From: Ignavibacteriota bacterium
GTDB lineage: Bacteria; Bacteroidota; Ignavibacteria; UBA10030; UBA6906
Reading direction: 5' to 3'
Length of the DNA stretch: 35,668 nucleotides
NCBI GenBank assembly: GCA_003162635.1
Contig: PMNE01000070.1
Coordinates: forward strand, 1 to 35,668
The translations under genes and the position numbers were made by a program. Shown piece by piece: positions 4,169 through 22,293 of this stretch; the stretch's first letter is position 1, and the number at the start of each line of letters is the position of its first letter. Under the pieces are notes generated by a model. It made no database searches and had not been told where the DNA came from. It saw only the letters and a list, made by a program, of their open reading frames with translations.

Positions 4169-4648
4169 ATGAGGATCATGCGGTTGGCGTTGGCCTCTGC
4201 AGCGTTGACGGTTTCGGCCGTTTCGCTGGTTCTGGCACAGCAAGCGGCACCGGACTTTTCCCTGAAAACAGCGACGGGAGAAGATGTTGTCCTGAGCAAA
4301 CTGCGGGGGAAAGCGGTTGTGGTCAATTTCTGGGCCACCTGGTGCGGCCCCTGTCGCGCAGAGATCCCGGGAATGCTGGAAGTGTACAAGGCGTACAAGA
4401 AGCGGGGGGTGGAGATCGTCGGTGTGTCGCTTGATCAGGACGGTTGGAAGTTTGTGACGCCGTTCGTGAAGAAGATGAACATCACATACCCTGTCGTCAT
4501 CGGTGACGAATCACTTGCAAACGCCTACGGGGGTATCAGCGGTATTCCCACATCGGTCTTTATTACCAAGCAGGGGACCATTGCAAAGAAGCACGTCGGA
4601 TACATGTCGAAGGAAGAATTCGAGAAGAACATCCAATCGATTCTGTAG
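4169..4648 (+). CDS. TlpA/ResA-like exported thioredoxin (redoxin)
   Basis: 159 residues. Signal peptide about 1-24 (LALASAALTVSAVSLVLAQQ), then an AhpC/TSA-Redoxin fold. The active site NFWATWCGPCRAEIPGM has C59 and C62, and the cis-Pro loop is GGISGIPTSVFI. This is the classic TlpA/ResA form, which reduces disulfides in exported proteins, often the haem-binding CxxCH of apocytochrome c. A cytochrome c is encoded at 24967, but no cytochrome maturation genes lie nearby, so that substrate is only an inference. A Shine-Dalgarno AGGGAGAG lies just upstream of ATG 4169. The gene converges with the minus-strand glycosyltransferase, with only 15 bases between their stop codons. Confidence 0.88.
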   Translation: MRIMRLALASAALTVSAVSLVLAQQAAPDFSLKTATGEDVVLSKLRGKAVVVNFWATWCGPCRAEIPGMLEVYKAYKKRGVEIVGVSLDQDGWKFVTPFVKKMNITYPVVIGDESLANAYGGISGIPTSVFITKQGTIAKKHVGYMSKEEFEKNIQSIL

Positions 4649-14834: not shown

Positions 14835-14866
14835 AGCAAAGCCCCGCGTCCGGGGCTTTGCTTTTT
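14835..14866 (+). terminator. rho-independent terminator after nuoF
   Basis: Perfect 12-bp stem, AGCAAAGCCCCG (14835-14846) with CGGGGCTTTGCT (14851-14862), a 4-base loop and a run of T. It starts 12 bases after the nuoF stop and ends the nuo operon before dut. Confidence 0.95.
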
Positions 14867-14896
14867 CACGGCGTCACAACAACGATTCCACAAGAC

Positions 14897-15349
14897 ATGA
14901 CACCACTCTCTATCGGCATTCTTCGACTGTCGGAAGCCACCTCTGATATCCCCCTCCCGTCGTACGCGACGGACGGCTCGGCAGGGTTGGACATCTGCGC
15001 CGCAGTGGAGGAAGACGTCGTGCTGCATCCGGGGGAAACCGCTCTCATCCCGACCGGATTTGCGATCGCACTCCCGCAGGGATATGAAGCGCAGGTGAGG
15101 CCGCGCTCCGGTCTGGCGGTGAAACACCAGGTGGGTATCCTGAATTCGCCGGGGACGATCGATTCCGACTACAGAGGGGAAGTGAAGGTCATACTGACGA
15201 ACTTCGGACGGAAGGATTTCCACCTGAAGCGCGGCGAGCGGATCGCGCAAATGGTGGTCGCGGAGTACACGCGCATCGCCTGGGAGGAGCGGAAAAACCT
15301 GGACGAAACGACGCGAGGCGCGGGCGGGTTCGGCCATACCGGCCTCTGA
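14897..15349 (+). CDS. dut: dUTP diphosphatase (trimeric dUTPase)
   Basis: 150 residues from ATG 14897; the upstream in-frame ATG at 14858 lies inside the terminator and is rejected. It hydrolyses dUTP to dUMP, keeping uracil out of DNA and supplying thymidylate synthesis. All five trimeric dUTPase motifs are present: [38 protein letters not shown] and the C-terminal [10 protein letters not shown]. In the last motif the usual GFGSTG is GFGHTG, a common variant. The Shine-Dalgarno is weak. It is followed after 33 bases by the RsmI-type gene, with which it may be co-transcribed. Confidence 0.96.
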
Positions 15350-15382: not shown

Positions 15383-16084
15383 ATGACTGCCATGCCGGGC
15401 ACACTCTCTCTCGTCGCAACGCCGATCGGCAACTACGACGATATCACCCTTCGGGCCTTGCGTGTCCTGAAGGAAGCCGACCTGCTGGTCACGGAGGAAC
15501 GGCGCGAAGGGGAACGCCTCATGCGCCACTTCGATATCGTGAAGCCGTTTGAAACGCTGAATGAACATAATGAAGCCGCTGCGTCGCACGCCATTCTGGA
15601 GCAGCTCGAAGCGGGAAAGAATGTCGCTCTCGTGTCCGATTGCGGGACGCCTGTTTTCTCCGATCCCGGACAAACCCTCGTGCGAAAAGCAATCGAACGG
15701 AGGATTCGGATCGTCCCGGTTCCGGGTGCCTCCTCCCTGATGCCGGCGCTGACAGTTTCTGGATTCTCCATCGATCAATTCCTCTTTTATGGCTGGCTCT
15801 CCCCGAAGAAGGACCGGCGGCGGGCCGAACTCCGGCAGCTCCGGCAGGAACGTCGCACCATCGTCCTCATGGATACGCCCTATCGCCTCGTCGCTTTGCT
15901 CGGCGATCTTGCCGAAACATTCGGAGATACGCGGAGGATCTGTATCGCGCTGGATCTGACCATGCCGGGGGAAACCATGCTGTACGGAACTGCGGTGGAG
16001 CTCTACCAGCATTGCCGTGCGCGGGAGGTGAAGGGAGAATTCGTCCTCGTCGTCGAGGACCGCCCGGCCCCGAAACATCCATAG
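15383..16084 (+). CDS. rsmI: RsmI-type SAM-dependent methyltransferase (tetrapyrrole methylase fold)
   Basis: 233 residues. The family methylates the 2'-O of C1402 in 16S rRNA. Motifs: LVATPIGNYDDITLRALRVL at the N-terminus, LNEHNE, the SAM-site loop VSDCGTPVFSDPG, VPVPGASSLMPALTVSG, and FLFYGWLSPKK. The usual EDTRHT after the first helix is EERREG here, and DAGTPGISDPG is DCGTPVFSDPG. The protein is about 40-50 residues shorter than typical RsmI and lacks most of the C-terminal extension. It may therefore be a divergent RsmI or a paralogue with another target; family membership is much surer than the exact substrate. Confidence 0.8.
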   Translation: MTAMPGTLSLVATPIGNYDDITLRALRVLKEADLLVTEERREGERLMRHFDIVKPFETLNEHNEAAASHAILEQLEAGKNVALVSDCGTPVFSDPGQTLVRKAIERRIRIVPVPGASSLMPALTVSGFSIDQFLFYGWLSPKKDRRRAELRQLRQERRTIVLMDTPYRLVALLGDLAETFGDTRRICIALDLTMPGETMLYGTAVELYQHCRAREVKGEFVLVVEDRPAPKHP

Positions 16085-16167: not shown

Positions 16168-17196
16168 ATGGCATTCCGGGCGTTAGTCCCCCATTCTGAG
16201 CGGGCCCGCGAGCTGTACGGAGACGACTGGTTGAATTCCGGGCCGGTCCTTCTGTCGGCCCTCCGCGGCCAGGTCATTCTGCTGGAGTTCTGGGACTACT
16301 GCAGCGCGGAGTGCCTGCGTACCATGCCGTACCTCAAGGAATGGCAGCGCCGCTATGAGTCGCTCGGTCTCGTCATCGTGGGTGTCCATACGCCCAGGTT
16401 TCCGTTCGGGAAGGATCCTGCTGCCGTCAAGGACGCCATCGACCGGCTGGGGTTGACATTCCCCGTTGTCCTGGACAATCAAGAGCTCATCCTGCAACAT
16501 TACGAATGCCGCTCGCTCCCCGAGATGATCGCCATCGACCGGGATGGATTTCTCCGCTTCAGAAACATCGGCGAAGGTTCCTATGGCGCCGTCGAGCAAG
16601 CATTGCAGGCGATGTTCTATGATGCCGGAATTTCGGGAGATCTTCCGCTCGTCATGGATCCGGTGAGGGAGAGCGATCGCGCGGGGGCGGTCTGTTATCG
16701 CCCGACGGCGGAGCTTTTTGCGGGGTATCTCCGGGGAAGCATCGGCAACGTCGAGGGATATGCCCCGGAATCGGTGATCCGCTATGCCGACCCCGGCCTG
16801 TATCTTGACGGGAGGTTTTATGCGGAGGGGGATTGGATGATCGGGCGCGACTTCGTCCGTCTTGACCGGAGCATGGGAACGGGGGGGCAGGTGATCGTGC
16901 ATTACCATGGTCTTGAGACGGAGGGCGTCCTGGCCGGCGACGGGAGCGGTCGTGCGGAGATCACGGTCAGGCAGGACGAGGCCTTCCTCGTGGAGGAGAA
17001 CAGGGGGAGAGATGTGCGCATTGACAGGCAGGGAAGAAGCTGCCTGCTCGTGGACAAACCTCGACTCTACCAGATTGTGCGCAACCCTGAATATGGTGAA
17101 CACGTCCTCCGACTCAGTGCGGGCGAGGGCGGCCTTCTCCTCTACACTCTTTCCTTTTCGACGGCGGTCATTCCGGAACTCGTCTCCGACAATTGA
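16168..17196 (+). CDS. DipZ-like redoxin: thioredoxin fold plus C-terminal beta domain, CxxxC motif
   Basis: 342 residues without a signal peptide or membrane helix. Residues about 20-165 are a TlpA/redoxin fold (VILLEFWDY, then LKEWQRRYESLGLVIVGVH, the form seen in the soluble half of DipZ and related proteins). Residues about 185-335 match the beta-rich DipZ C-terminal domain (TAELFAGYLRG, then GDWMIGRDFVRLDRSMGTGG and KPRLYQIVRNPEYGEH). The expected WDYTCxNC active site is WDYCSAEC here: the first catalytic cysteine is displaced by one position (C45 and C49, CxxxC). Another member or a non-redox role is possible. It is followed by metH after 119 bases. Confidence 0.78.
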   Translation: MAFRALVPHSERARELYGDDWLNSGPVLLSALRGQVILLEFWDYCSAECLRTMPYLKEWQRRYESLGLVIVGVHTPRFPFGKDPAAVKDAIDRLGLTFPVVLDNQELILQHYECRSLPEMIAIDRDGFLRFRNIGEGSYGAVEQALQAMFYDAGISGDLPLVMDPVRESDRAGAVCYRPTAELFAGYLRGSIGNVEGYAPESVIRYADPGLYLDGRFYAEGDWMIGRDFVRLDRSMGTGGQVIVHYHGLETEGVLAGDGSGRAEITVRQDEAFLVEENRGRDVRIDRQGRSCLLVDKPRLYQIVRNPEYGEHVLRLSAGEGGLLLYTLSFSTAVIPELVSDN

Positions 17197-17315
17197 CCCC
17201 CCTCCGCCGGTCAGAAGGCGGGAGGCGGTGACCGCCGTGTCCCGCGTTTGGTTGAACGAAAGCAACAGTGCTCTGCCTGCGGCATGGGCCGCACATTCAC
17301 TCCTGAGGATCCTTG

Positions 17316-20300
17316 ATGCCGAAGTCCTTTCTCGATGTCCTGCAAGAAAAAATCGTTGTCTTTGACGGTGCCACCGGGACTCATCTCCAGGGACAGCACC
17401 TGAGTGCGGACGATTTCGGCGGGGAGAATCTCAACGGCTGCAATGAGTACCTCGTCTTTTCCTGTCCCTCCGCTGTTGAGCGCGTCCACCGCGACTATCT
17501 CGAGGCGGGGGCGGATGTCATCGAGACCGATTCGTTCGGATCGACTTCCATCGTTCTGAACGAATATGGACTAGGCGACCGTGCCTATGAACTGAACTTC
17601 ACTGCGGCCGCTCTTGCCCGCCGCCTCGCTGCGGAATTCTCCACTCCGGACCGCCCCCGTTTTGTCGCGGGCTCCATGGGGCCGACGACAAAGCTCCCTT
17701 CACTCGGACATATACGGTTCAAGGAGATGGCGGCTGCCTATCAGGAGCAGGCACGGGGACTTCTTGAGGGGGGAGCCGACCTCCTCTGCGTGGAAACCTG
17801 CCAGGATCTTCTCCAGGCAAAGGCGGCCCTCTACGGCATCTTCAGCTGTTTCGAGGACTTGCGCCGCCGGATTCCCATCATTACGTCCGTCACGATTGAG
17901 TCCATGGGGACCATGCTCCTTGGGACGGAGGTCTCCGCGGCTCTCGTGTCGCTCGAACCGTTCGATGTCGATGTCATCGGCATAAACTGCGCCACCGGCC
18001 CGAAAGAAATGTCCGACCACATCCGGACCCTTGCAGGCGCCAGCCCCAAACCGGTCTTTGTCATGCCGAACGCCGGGATGCCCGAGAATGTCGGGGGGCA
18101 TGCGCACTATACGCTGAAGCCGGAGGAATTCGTCCGGTACCTTTCCCACTTCGTGAAGGATTTGGGCGTCAGCGTTGTGGGAGGATGCTGCGGCACCACC
18201 CCCGAGCATATCCGGCAGCTTGCAGATGCGGTTGGAGGGTTGGCCCCGCTGCCGAGGACGGTGGAGTTCATCCCCAGCGCGTCGAGTCTCTACCAGGCCG
18301 TTCCCCTGCACATCGATCCACCCCCCGTGCTGGTGGGAGAGCGGACCAATGCGAATGGAAGCAAGCAGTTCCGCGATCTTCTCGCAAAGGAGGATTGGGA
18401 AGCGATCGTCGCCATGGGAAAGGAGGCGTCAAAAGAAGGGGCGCACATGGTCGATGTGTGCGCCGCGTACGTCGGCCGCGATGAGGCGAAGGACATGCGG
18501 GAGATCATCACGCGGTTCAACACGCAGGTCACACTCCCGATCGTGGTCGACTCCACGGAGGCGCCGGTTATCGAAGACGCCCTGCAGCTCATCGGCGGCA
18601 AGGCGGTCATCAATTCGATCAACCTGGAGGATGGGGAGGAACGGATCAAGCGGGTGATCCCGCTGTGCCGGAGGTACGGTGCGGCAGTCATCGCCCTCAC
18701 CATCGATGAGCAGGGAATGGCAAAAACGGCGGAGAAGAAGCTCGCCGTTGCAAAGAGGATCTACGACCTGGTCGTGGGCAGGTACGGGATGCAGCCGCAT
18801 GATCTCATCTTCGATGCCCTCACCTTTACACTCGGATCGGGTGATGAAGAATTTCGCCGCGCAGGCATCGAGACGATCGAGGCGATCCGTCTGATCAAGA
18901 AGGAACTCCCCGGGGTGAAGACACTCCTCGGAGTCAGCAATATCTCGTTCGGCCTTTCTCCGGCCATGCGCCATCCGCTCAACAGCGTCTTCCTCCACTA
19001 CGCCATCGAGGCGGGTCTCGATATGGCGATCGTCCATGCTGCGAGAATCATGCCCCTCTACAAAATCGACGAAAAGGGGCGGGAGCTCTGCCGGCAGGTC
19101 GTGTTCGACGAACGGACATTTGAAGACATCCTGGAGGGGGGGAAACCACAAAAGAGGACGGTGACCGATCCGTTGAAGGACCTGATGGCGTACTATGCGA
19201 CACAGAGCGGGGAGAAAAAGGAGAAAATTGTCGAGGGGCTGACAGTTGAGGAACGGCTCAAGAACCGCATCGTCGACGGAGATAAGGTGGGGCTTCAGGC
19301 CGATCTTGAGGAAGCCCGCAAGACCCATGCGCCGCTCGAGATCATCAATACGATCCTTCTCGACGGCATGAAGGTGGTCGGCGAACTCTTCGGGAGCGGA
19401 CAAATGCAGTTGCCTTTCGTGCTCCAATCGGCGGAAGTGATGAAGACCGCAGTGGCCCACCTGGAACAGTATATGGACAAAGTGGATTCCGCCTCGAAAG
19501 GAATCATGGTCCTCGCGACGGTCAAGGGAGACGTCCATGACATCGGCAAGAACCTGGTCGATATCATCCTGACCAATAACGGATACCGTGTCATCAACCT
19601 CGGGATCAAAGTGCCGGTTGAGTCGATGATCCACGCGGCACAGGAGCATGGGGCGGACGCCATCGGAATGAGCGGACTCCTCGTGAAATCCACCCTCATT
19701 ATGAAGCAGAATCTCGAGGTTTTGAACGAGCAGGGCATCACCATTCCGGTGATTCTCGGAGGGGCTGCATTGACGCGACGCTATGTCGAGGACGACCTCC
19801 GGCAGGTGTACAAGGGGAGTGTCTTCTATGCCAACGATGCGTTCGACGGTCTTGCCTTCATGGGGAAGATTGGTGCGGGCGATCTTGCGACGACCACAGG
19901 CGGCGGAGACGATGGAGGGGAGGAAGAGTCGCTCACGGGAACCGAAGCGAAGATAGCCCTTGCCGTGAGCGAGGACCAACGGTACAAAGAGCGGCAATCC
20001 CCTGCAACAGGCGACGCACGACGGTCGAAAGTGCGGCGGGATGCTCCCATCCCGAAACCACCGTTTTGGGGAACCAAGATCCTCGATTCGCTTTCCCTGG
20101 GGGAGGTCTTCCACTTCGTGAATGAGGTCGCCCTCATCCGCGGCCAGTGGCAAGTCCGCAAAGGGAAGCTTGCCGATGCTGCATACCAGGAAATGCTCCG
20201 GGAAAAAGTGTATCCCGAATATGAGGCGCTGAAAGCAAAGGCCGCCCGCGAGAAACTGCTCCAGCCGAAGGCGGTCTATGGCTACTTCCCGTGCCAGGCC

Positions 20301-20843
20301 GAGGGAGACGATTTGATCGTCTACGAGAGCGACGGAGCGACCGTCAGAACCCGTTTCACATTTCCGCGGCAGAAAAACGACAGGTATCTCTGTCTGGCGG
20401 ATTATTTTGCGCCGGTCGATTCGGGACGGATGGATGTGGCCGCATTCCACCTCGTCACGATGGGCAGTGTCGCATCAGAACACTCGGCAAAACTCTTCTC
20501 CGGCGGTAACTACAAGGATTATCTTTACTTCCATGGGCTCAGCGTGGAAAGCGCAGAAGCCCTTGCAGAACTGATACACAAGCGGATACGGGAAGAACTC
20601 GGCATCGCAGGGAAGGATGCCCCCGATGTGCGCCGCCTCTTCTCTCAGGGATACCAGGGGGCCCGGTACAGCTTTGGCTATCCTGCGTGTCCCAATCTGG
20701 AGGATCAGACCAAGCTCTTTGACCTTCTTGAAGGAGAAAGGATTGGAGTGCATCTGACGGATGAGTACTCACTCGAACCCGAGCAGAGCACCAATGCGAT
20801 CATCGTGCACCATCCGGAGGCCCGATACTTCAATATTTCGTGA
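17316..20843 (+). CDS. metH: cobalamin-dependent methionine synthase
   Basis: 1175 residues from ATG 17316 with GAGG upstream; a TTG one codon earlier is less likely. It transfers the methyl group of 5-methyltetrahydrofolate through cobalamin to homocysteine. Domains in order: homocysteine/Zn barrel (about 1-315; Cys in GINCATGP about 225 and the CC of GGCCGTTPEHI about 290), pterin barrel (about 335-610, VGERTNANGSKQF), cap and B12-binding domain (about 640-860; DVHDIGK with the cobalt-ligand His741), an acidic Gly/Glu linker (about 865-880), and the SAM-dependent reactivation domain (about 905-1175; ARYSFGYPACPN). All four modules are in one chain, as in E. coli MetH. No cobalamin riboswitch was recognised upstream. 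Confidence 0.97.
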   Translation: MPKSFLDVLQEKIVVFDGATGTHLQGQHLSADDFGGENLNGCNEYLVFSCPSAVERVHRDYLEAGADVIETDSFGSTSIVLNEYGLGDRAYELNFTAAALARRLAAEFSTPDRPRFVAGSMGPTTKLPSLGHIRFKEMAAAYQEQARGLLEGGADLLCVETCQDLLQAKAALYGIFSCFEDLRRRIPIITSVTIESMGTMLLGTEVSAALVSLEPFDVDVIGINCATGPKEMSDHIRTLAGASPKPVFVMPNAGMPENVGGHAHYTLKPEEFVRYLSHFVKDLGVSVVGGCCGTTPEHIRQLADAVGGLAPLPRTVEFIPSASSLYQAVPLHIDPPPVLVGERTNANGSKQFRDLLAKEDWEAIVAMGKEASKEGAHMVDVCAAYVGRDEAKDMREIITRFNTQVTLPIVVDSTEAPVIEDALQLIGGKAVINSINLEDGEERIKRVIPLCRRYGAAVIALTIDEQGMAKTAEKKLAVAKRIYDLVVGRYGMQPHDLIFDALTFTLGSGDEEFRRAGIETIEAIRLIKKELPGVKTLLGVSNISFGLSPAMRHPLNSVFLHYAIEAGLDMAIVHAARIMPLYKIDEKGRELCRQVVFDERTFEDILEGGKPQKRTVTDPLKDLMAYYATQSGEKKEKIVEGLTVEERLKNRIVDGDKVGLQADLEEARKTHAPLEIINTILLDGMKVVGELFGSGQMQLPFVLQSAEVMKTAVAHLEQYMDKVDSASKGIMVLATVKGDVHDIGKNLVDIILTNNGYRVINLGIKVPVESMIHAAQEHGADAIGMSGLLVKSTLIMKQNLEVLNEQGITIPVILGGAALTRRYVEDDLRQVYKGSVFYANDAFDGLAFMGKIGAGDLATTTGGGDDGGEEESLTGTEAKIALAVSEDQRYKERQSPATGDARRSKVRRDAPIPKPPFWGTKILDSLSLGEVFHFVNEVALIRGQWQVRKGKLADAAYQEMLREKVYPEYEALKAKAAREKLLQPKAVYGYFPCQAEGDDLIVYESDGATVRTRFTFPRQKNDRYLCLADYFAPVDSGRMDVAAFHLVTMGSVASEHSAKLFSGGNYKDYLYFHGLSVESAEALAELIHKRIREELGIAGKDAPDVRRLFSQGYQGARYSFGYPACPNLEDQTKLFDLLEGERIGVHLTDEYSLEPEQSTNAIIVHHPEARYFNIS

Positions 20844-21379: not shown

Positions 21380-21447
21380 GTGTTTTAGAGAAGCGGGCGG
21401 GAGAGAGGGTAACGGCAGAATAGGCCACCATGGGGATCTCTGCAGCT

Positions 21448-22293
21448 ATGAAAATCGGAGCATACGATCTTTACGCGATTGAAACGGGACGTTTCCGGCT
21501 GGACGGGGGGGCGATGTTTGGGGTCGTGCCGAGATCCCTCTGGGAAAAGACAAATCCCCCCGATGAAAGGAACCGGATCACGCTTGCCGCGAGGGCGCTC
21601 CTGGTGGTCGGGAGCGGGAAAGTCATCCTGATCGATGTCGGGAACGGAGACAAGTTCGACGAGAAATTCCGATCGATCTATGCCATCGAATCGACATCCT
21701 CGGGCCTTCTCCCATCCCTCGCCCGCCATGGATTCCAACCGGCGGACGTCACCGACGTCATCCTGACGCACCTTCATTTCGACCACGCGGGAGGGTGTAC
21801 ACGGATTGTGAGCGGCGAAATTGTGCCGGCATTCCCCAATGCAAAATATCATGTGCAGCGTGAACACTGGGAGGCCGCACTGCATCCGACGGAAAAGGAT
21901 AGGGCGAGTTTTGTGGCCGATGACTTTGTCCCCCTCGAACGCCACGGTGTCGTGTCGTTCCTGGAGGGGGATGGGGAGATCTTCCCGGGGATCAACGTCC
22001 GGACGTTCCACGGGCATACATCGGCGATGCAATGTCCCGTCATCGGCGATGGTTCATCGACCCTCCTCTATGGCGCCGACCTTCTCCCCACCGCGTCCCA
22101 CCTTCACCTGCCATGGATCATGGGATTCGACGTGCGGCCGCTCGTGACGCTGGAGGAGAAACGGCAGGCTCTTGCGGAAGCGGCGGATGAGGACTGGCTG
22201 CTCTTCTTCGAGCATGATCCCTCGTGTGCGGCGACCCGCCTGGTCCGGACGGACAAGGGGATTGTGCAAGGTGAGGGCGTCACTTTCGAGTAA
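21448..22293 (+). CDS. metallo-beta-lactamase-fold hydrolase
   Basis: 281 residues from ATG 21448; an in-frame ATG at 21430 would add six residues. It is an MBL-fold enzyme of the lactonase/general metallohydrolase type. The two-metal site appears as LTHLHFDHAGG (HxHxDH, about residues 113-118), with a later His in FHGHTSAMQ and an Asp in LLYGADLLP. It has no signal peptide. Substrate unknown; quorum-lactone, glyoxalase-like and phosphodiester substrates all occur in this superfamily. Its stop is 13 bases before the Rieske gene, followed at once by queG, so the three are probably one operon. Confidence 0.88.
   Translation: MKIGAYDLYAIETGRFRLDGGAMFGVVPRSLWEKTNPPDERNRITLAARALLVVGSGKVILIDVGNGDKFDEKFRSIYAIESTSSGLLPSLARHGFQPADVTDVILTHLHFDHAGGCTRIVSGEIVPAFPNAKYHVQREHWEAALHPTEKDRASFVADDFVPLERHGVVSFLEGDGEIFPGINVRTFHGHTSAMQCPVIGDGSSTLLYGADLLPTASHLHLPWIMGFDVRPLVTLEEKRQALAEAADEDWLLFFEHDPSCAATRLVRTDKGIVQGEGVTFE

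Follow-up and report, generated by a model that had tools for sequence, protein, structure and literature searches.

DipZ (Rv2874) of Mycobacterium tuberculosis, whose ectodomain is represented by PDB entries 2hyx and 5cyy, carries the active site SCINC and is described in excerpts of PMC6107167 and PMC7479077 as an electron transporter for the disulfide bonds of secreted and surface proteins; a passage of PMC7479077 also supplies the name carbohydrate-binding-module-like for its C-terminal domain. Human NHLRC2 has CCINC, the first cysteine of which corresponds to position 45 of the protein treated here. According to the excerpted text of PMC6107167, this cysteine protrudes from the surface, and the thioredoxin-like domain of NHLRC2 had no oxidoreductase activity in an insulin assay. 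For E. coli CnoX, a section of PMC6282202 reports an SXXC site, no oxidoreductase activity, and a second cysteine that forms mixed disulfides. Finally, three GH126 proteins of Clostridium butyricum bear DipZ-type thioredoxin-like extensions without CxxC, as stated in an excerpt of PMC7479077.

Here, we analyzed a protein encoded in a 35,668-nucleotide stretch of DNA from an Ignavibacteriota bacterium (contig PMNE01000070.1; the whole stretch is referred to as the window), for which the first-pass annotation had proposed a DipZ-like redoxin with a displaced active-site cysteine. The DipZ-like identity was borne out, as both domain matches exceed the curated Pfam cut-offs (PF08534 with 42.9 bits, cut-off 26.6; PF17991 with 48.8 bits, cut-off 27.1) and the best sequence match in PDB is the C-terminal domain of DipZ (E 3.6e-27). 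An AlphaFold model of the protein (pLDDT 91, pTM 0.89) superposes with residues 1-331 on DipZ 2hyx (Z 34.1, TM 0.78, 298 residues, rmsd 1.9); a two-domain fold like that of the DipZ ectodomain is predicted with confidence. A single full-length copy was found in the genome to which the window belongs (G000). Features of the locus are listed in Table 1.

Table 1. Features of the redoxin-like gene, its product and its neighbors (window positions).
Feature	Position	Strand	Basis or conservation
dut, dUTPase, upstream neighbor	14858..15349	+	PF00692
TP_methylase family gene, upstream neighbor	15383..16084	+	PF00590
DipZ-ectodomain-like protein, no evident leader, 342 aa	16168..17196	+	intact ORF; Pfam Redoxin and Thioredoxin_10
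Thioredoxin-like (Redoxin) domain, residues 26-138	16243..16581	+	PF08534, E 5.5e-11
Active-site segment WDYCSAEC, W42-C49	16291..16314	+	family type WDYTCxNC
C45, additional Cys, aligned with the leading Cys of CCINC in SOQ1 and NHLRC2	16300..16302	+	alignment; Cys in 1/80 orthologues
S46 (AGC), replacing the first catalytic Cys	16303..16305	+	Cys in 34/80 orthologues
C49, second catalytic Cys, kept	16312..16314	+	Cys in 39/80 orthologues
C114, 4 residues N-terminal to P118	16507..16509	+	Cys in 7/80 orthologues
P118	16519..16521	+	invariant, 80/80 orthologues
C176	16693..16695	+	Cys in 47/80 orthologues and 29/36 sequences outside the clade
Thioredoxin_10 domain, C-terminal, residues 180-330 (counterpart of the DipZ carbohydrate-binding-module-like domain)	16705..17157	+	PF17991, E 1.4e-12
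Clade-specific motif of the C-terminal domain: G190, G193, N194, E196, G197, P200, D208	16735..16791	+	conservation comparison
metH, cobalamin-dependent methionine synthase, usual downstream neighbor	17313..20843	+	Pfam

The codons of the active-site segment are TGG GAC TAC TGC AGC GCG GAG TGC (W42 D43 Y44 C45 S46 A47 E48 C49), and residues 41-49 of the protein read FWDYCSAEC. Alignments to DipZ, SOQ1 and the orthologues place S46 opposite the first catalytic cysteine and C49 opposite the second, which confirms the earlier reading of a serine at the first catalytic position with a cysteine one residue before it. Two adjacent codons differ from the nearest relatives at this site and the reading frame is undisturbed. 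The remaining cysteines of the protein are C114, C176 and C292; the orthologues with a cysteine at 114 include the window protein and its four g6 relatives. P118 occupies what we take to be the cis-proline position of the thioredoxin-like fold.

In order to place this active site among its relatives, we searched 98 genomes of the window's order, 84 of which gave a match at E <= 1e-40; in a further genome (G010), an apparent absence turned out to be a fragment at a contig edge adjoining metH. Four loci were dropped, namely one with a broken frame (L083), two cut by contig ends (L072, TCINC; L071, ASAGS) and one with a short C-terminus (L055, TCMRC), leaving a set of 80 full-length orthologues; L071 and L055 are outside the counts given for this set but were used in the dN/dS pairs below. 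Both catalytic cysteines are present in 28 orthologues, only the first in 6, only the second in 11 and neither in 35. By conservation, the two positions rank 224th and 186th among 342. In the clade of seven sequences that includes the window protein, five of the other six have CxxC (CAGC four times, CASC once) and one is without active-site cysteines. How recently the site can change is seen from L102 (CGSS) and L103 (CGSC), which are 93% identical. The loss of the cysteine at position 46 from an otherwise preserved protein is a genuine one, and relatives show it repeatedly. The first-pass annotation had held that CxxC in all close homologues, together with a sequencing or assembly error, would speak against its finding; as to the homologues, nearly all close ones do have CxxC, yet similar losses arose independently elsewhere.

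In a scan of genome contigs, the window protein alone yielded 13 pattern matches, none of them a relative, while a profile from a 20-row alignment led to 43 loci, mostly in records of uncultured Ignavibacteriae, Ignavibacteria, Ignavibacteriales or Bacteroidetes, with one Anaerolineae and one Uhrbacteria record. For a wider tree, 49 sequences of other groups were added to the 80 orthologues (129 rows), comprising every listed place of groups f58 and f61 and part of the listed matches in the others; three short single-domain sequences, all with CxxC (L148-L150), were left out. Active-site columns were excluded from the trees. The 80 orthologues group with f58 (6 sequences) and f61cyt (7 sequences), which are of the same class, in a 93-member clade with an SH-aLRT of 99, although the placement of f58 and f61cyt is weakened by their long branches. 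Within this clade, 28 members have both cysteines (including 10/12 of the f3 sequences), 10 only the first, 11 only the second and 44 neither, so that one or both are lost in 65/93; single-cysteine forms make up 21 of the 93. No such loss was seen in the 36 sequences sampled outside the clade, every one of which has CxxC.

The tree of the 80 orthologues largely matches the genome families, which is the pattern that vertical inheritance would give. It requires 10 changes between intact and broken CxxC by parsimony (8-11 over 200 bootstrap trees) or, with irreversible loss and a root at f5, 18-22 losses (100 bootstrap trees). The corresponding numbers for the 129-row tree are 11 changes and 18 irreversible losses. 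By themselves, parsimony counts cannot distinguish losses from gains. However, since all 36 sequences outside the clade have CxxC, loss is the simpler reading, and we infer that the direction of change was loss rather than gain. Relating losses to exposure, i.e., to the branch length along which CxxC was still present, gives 18 losses on 11.7 changes per site in the clade and 0 on 15.5 outside. If loss rates were equal inside and outside, such a distribution would have a P of about 2e-7, a value taken from a single quick tree in which the long f58 and f61cyt branches meet.

As a control, we used the TlpA-like gene of the window (4169-4648), which has a match at E <= 1e-25 in 88/98 genomes. Its WCxPC motif is kept in 30/30 TlpA-like loci among the matches listed, the window's own included. 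This control bears on the lineage and on data quality, not on cytosolic redoxins. A further thioredoxin-like protein, matching Thioredoxin_7 (PF13899) and containing WCIWC, is encoded nearby at 2148-2639.

Selection was assessed from dN/dS in pairs of orthologues. The nearest relatives of the window protein are 59% identical to it, and the estimate accordingly rests on pairs of other orthologues. Values for pairs with neither cysteine range from 0.06 to 0.19 (9/10 with usable dS) and those for pairs with both from 0.04 to 0.14 (14/19 with usable dS), the pairs being more than 72% identical and dS being near saturation in many. In 8/10 Cys-less pairs, dN is lower in the thioredoxin half than in the C-terminal half. 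The values for Cys-less pairs resemble those for pairs with both cysteines and show the Cys-less members to be under purifying selection.

Residues invariant in all 80 orthologues are W21, F41, Y63, D103, P118, E143, G186, G193, G197 and G221. When clade members with CxxC and Cys-less members are compared with sequences outside the clade, 11 positions are conserved at 0.93 or above in both clade classes and below 0.7 outside, namely W21, F41, G154 and Y218 together with the seven residues of the motif in Table 1, which thus account for 7/11 and lie within residues 190-208. The motif residues fall to 0.17-0.64 outside the clade and are invariant or more than 90% conserved across the 80 orthologues. 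As this motif is kept with or without the cysteines, it is the main clue that the retained function may sit in the C-terminal domain. Conversely, residues invariant outside the clade and relaxed in Cys-less members include N48, P54, W117, E136 and Y139, which we presume, from thioredoxin structures, to lie around the old active site; N48 is relaxed in clade members with CxxC as well.

Neither a membrane domain nor an export leader is evident in the window protein when judged by eye: its frame has 10 codons upstream of the start methionine, and the protein begins with a hydrophilic stretch. The orthologues of the order likewise begin near the conserved W21 region without a clear leader (by eye). 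Because no leader was seen, the window protein is probably cytosolic. Some f58 sequences have a hydrophobic in-frame stretch ahead of the likely start methionine. Outside the clade, hydrophobic leaders are present in 27 sequences of groups f10, f15, f61ex and f14, with a lipobox-like motif in 10 cases; in f27 sequences, a membrane part is seen upstream, where 258-288 residues include long hydrophobic stretches. In 6/7 f61 genomes two paralogues occur, one with a leader and TCVNC, the other leaderless and without active-site cysteines (YASxxW); the pairs are L202/L204, L205/L209, L207/L200, L210/L211, L212/L201 and L208/L206. Two leaderless sequences outside the clade, L189 and L193, nevertheless keep CxxC intact. 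Consequently, loss does not strictly follow location and cannot be predicted from the absence of export by itself.

Taken together, we consider it probable that the window protein is a DipZ-derived binding protein in which thiol chemistry is dispensable, belonging to a family with recurrent loss of the catalytic cysteines and representing one independent loss. In this explanation, a DipZ-ectodomain-like two-domain protein, probably cytosolic, would have been inherited in an Ignavibacteria-type lineage where thiol-disulfide chemistry became dispensable. The change of Cys46 to Ser would be one of many independent losses of CxxC, and C45 a substitution in a single lineage. The thioredoxin domain would serve as a folded frame, and the conserved job would fall to residues that persist whether or not the cysteines are present, above all G190/G193-N194/E196-G197/P200/D208. 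Most likely, the window protein would then act as a non-catalytic binding or scaffold protein; we infer from the sequence that its redox activity was lost, and a binding role is what the kept residues suggest. Redox use may persist in some lineages of the clade that keep CxxC, and monothiol chemistry could still occur in single-cysteine forms. A more far-reaching version, which we offer tentatively and hold to be doubtful, is that a DipZ-type oxidoreductase entered the cytosol and gained a new conserved site in the carbohydrate-binding-module-like domain, becoming a metabolite- or protein-binding factor tied to methionine metabolism, after which the active site eroded freely. If it were true, the family would offer a graded natural series, with intact CxxC at one end, both single-cysteine forms in between and no cysteine at the other.

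By analogy with E. coli CnoX, the protein might instead have kept a single-thiol role, forming mixed disulfides through C49, C114 or C176. The precedent combines SXXC with a distant cysteine, as described in the excerpt of PMC6282202, and the window protein does have C49, C114 and C176 besides C45 and C292. At position 176, cysteine is found in 25/28 clade members with both catalytic cysteines, in 9/10 with the first only and in 7/11 with the second only. However, it is found in only 10/44 Cys-less members, which is the opposite of the CnoX pattern, and it is either catalytic cysteine that is lost in the family rather than one consistently. We therefore regard such a role as unlikely.

The genomic neighborhood suggests another possibility, namely that the protein assists the neighboring MetH, e.g., by protection or reactivation. 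Where 2,500 bases or more of downstream sequence were available, metH follows on the same strand in 51/67 loci of the order; when two shorter metH loci are included, the count is 53/69 (f1 17/17, f2 5/5, f3 7/11, f5 10/13, f6 14/23), with 15 of the 84 loci set aside. It also follows in 6/6 f58 loci. In the order, this adjacency persists despite three different sets of upstream neighbors: dut with an rsmI-like gene, peptidase- and transglycosylase-like genes, or rny-, coaE- and aminotransferase-like genes. In the window, the rsmI-like gene is the one at 15383..16084. On the other hand, no metH was found in the DNA read beside the gene in 7/7 f61cyt loci, whose neighbors, read by eye, gave no functional lead, and in a few genomes (e.g., G046 and G085) metH lies further downstream on the same contig, not close by. 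Moreover, G047 has the redoxin-like gene without a MetH match at E <= 1e-60, in G022, G053 and G041 it is accompanied by no MetH other than a divergent one (36% identity), and conversely G042, G057, G065 and G023 have metH without a match to the redoxin-like gene at E <= 1e-40. A strict dependence on MetH is weakened by these genomes with one gene but not the other. Adjacency to metH is usual but not obligate, and a shared operon position alone would suffice to explain it, so that we judge assistance to MetH to be distinctly unlikely.

Some further observations concern these loci. In G022, G053, G041 and G062, where only a divergent MetH is present (about 34-36% identity to that of the window), the place after the redoxin-like gene is taken not by metH but by homologues of two window genes, the ferredoxin-like one and the one at 21430-22293. 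An extra gene often stands between the redoxin-like gene and metH (L094, L096, L097 and others); presumably it is nitronate-monooxygenase-like, and in f6 often alcohol-dehydrogenase-like. A single ORF of 1176 aa encodes MetH in the window. In several genomes of the same family (e.g., G015, G018, G009, G011, G007, G001, G002, G010), however, the MetH match is in two pieces with a break near residue 610, and in the f4 genomes G023, G028 and G033 the two pieces are on separate contigs, as though the methyl-transfer and cobalamin halves of the enzyme had come apart.

One outcome that the first-pass annotation had itself raised is a working CxxxC pair, made up of C45 and C49, whose redox potential is changed. 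Both cysteines are present in the window protein, and SOQ1 and NHLRC2 have a cysteine at the C45 position, which in NHLRC2 is exposed (excerpt of PMC6107167). Nevertheless, the alignment gives no sign of a conserved CxxxC subfamily, since none of the other orthologues has a cysteine at 45; other broken members nearly always have Thr, Ser or Ala there. Stray cysteines at the flanking positions 44, 45, 47, 48 and 50 were counted in 65 sequences with broken sites, with the expectation taken from the cysteine frequency elsewhere in the same sequences. Two were observed (C45 of the window protein and C47 of L101) against 2.5 expected, with P(>=2) = 0.71. As this is no more than chance would give, the displaced C45 calls for no explanation of its own. 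Nor does a tuned new redox pair agree with the relatives, many of which lost either or both cysteines recurrently and without compensation. Thus, a functional CxxxC pair is very unlikely, and of the two outcomes that the annotation had allowed, abolished normal disulfide exchange appears likelier than an altered redox potential. That the gene is decaying and was caught early in pseudogenisation is hardly credible, for although a catalytic residue is lost and the end branch of the window protein measures 0.49 against a median of 0.18, the 342-aa frame is intact, residues invariant in the other orthologues are retained, so that the protein shows no signs of decay, as had been noted before, and Cys-less relatives are under purifying selection.

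Annotation as an oxidoreductase often rests on nothing more than a thioredoxin fold. In the present case, some 10 to 20 changes of state of the catalytic pair took place within one orthologous set while the remainder stayed under selection. This natural series lends itself to the question of what function a redoxin performs after redox chemistry has ceased to be its task. A further lesson is that a single odd active site should be compared with all of its relatives before it is put forward as a new motif.

How the window protein relates to known systems can be summarized as follows. With the DipZ ectodomain it has the whole two-domain fold in common; it differs in having CSAEC, no membrane domain and no evident leader, and with S46 in place of the first cysteine it lacks the CxxC of a DipZ oxidoreductase. 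ResA is similar in its thioredoxin-like domain, but the NCBIfam ResA model matches the window protein with 61.4 bits, far below its cut-off of 170 bits, and the window protein has an extra C-terminal domain and no CxxC. NHLRC2 and SOQ1 have a related thioredoxin-like domain, including the cysteine at the C45 position, but in them it is accompanied by an NHL beta-propeller and has CCINC with its three cysteines complete. The window protein has neither; an NHL domain is absent from its Pfam matches up to E 1, and the whole model fits DipZ. The CnoX (YbbN) chaperedoxins have SXXC for CXXC in part of the family, like SAEC here, and CnoX is cytosolic, as the window protein probably is. CnoX has a C-terminal TPR domain, whereas the second domain of the window protein is Thioredoxin_10 and no TPR domain is among its Pfam matches up to E 1. 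Furthermore, SXXC members of CnoX keep a second conserved cysteine, unlike most Cys-less members of the window family with respect to C176, and the window family has losses at both cysteines, many times. The C. butyricum GH126 extensions, three cases in the excerpt of PMC7479077, are joined to a glycoside hydrolase, which the window protein is not. Apart from CnoX, none of the papers listed in a literature search names a family whose CxxC has eroded as in the window family. Loss of redox chemistry in a thioredoxin fold is thus already known from CnoX, NHLRC2 and the GH126 extensions; what is unusual here is the number of losses within one orthologous set.
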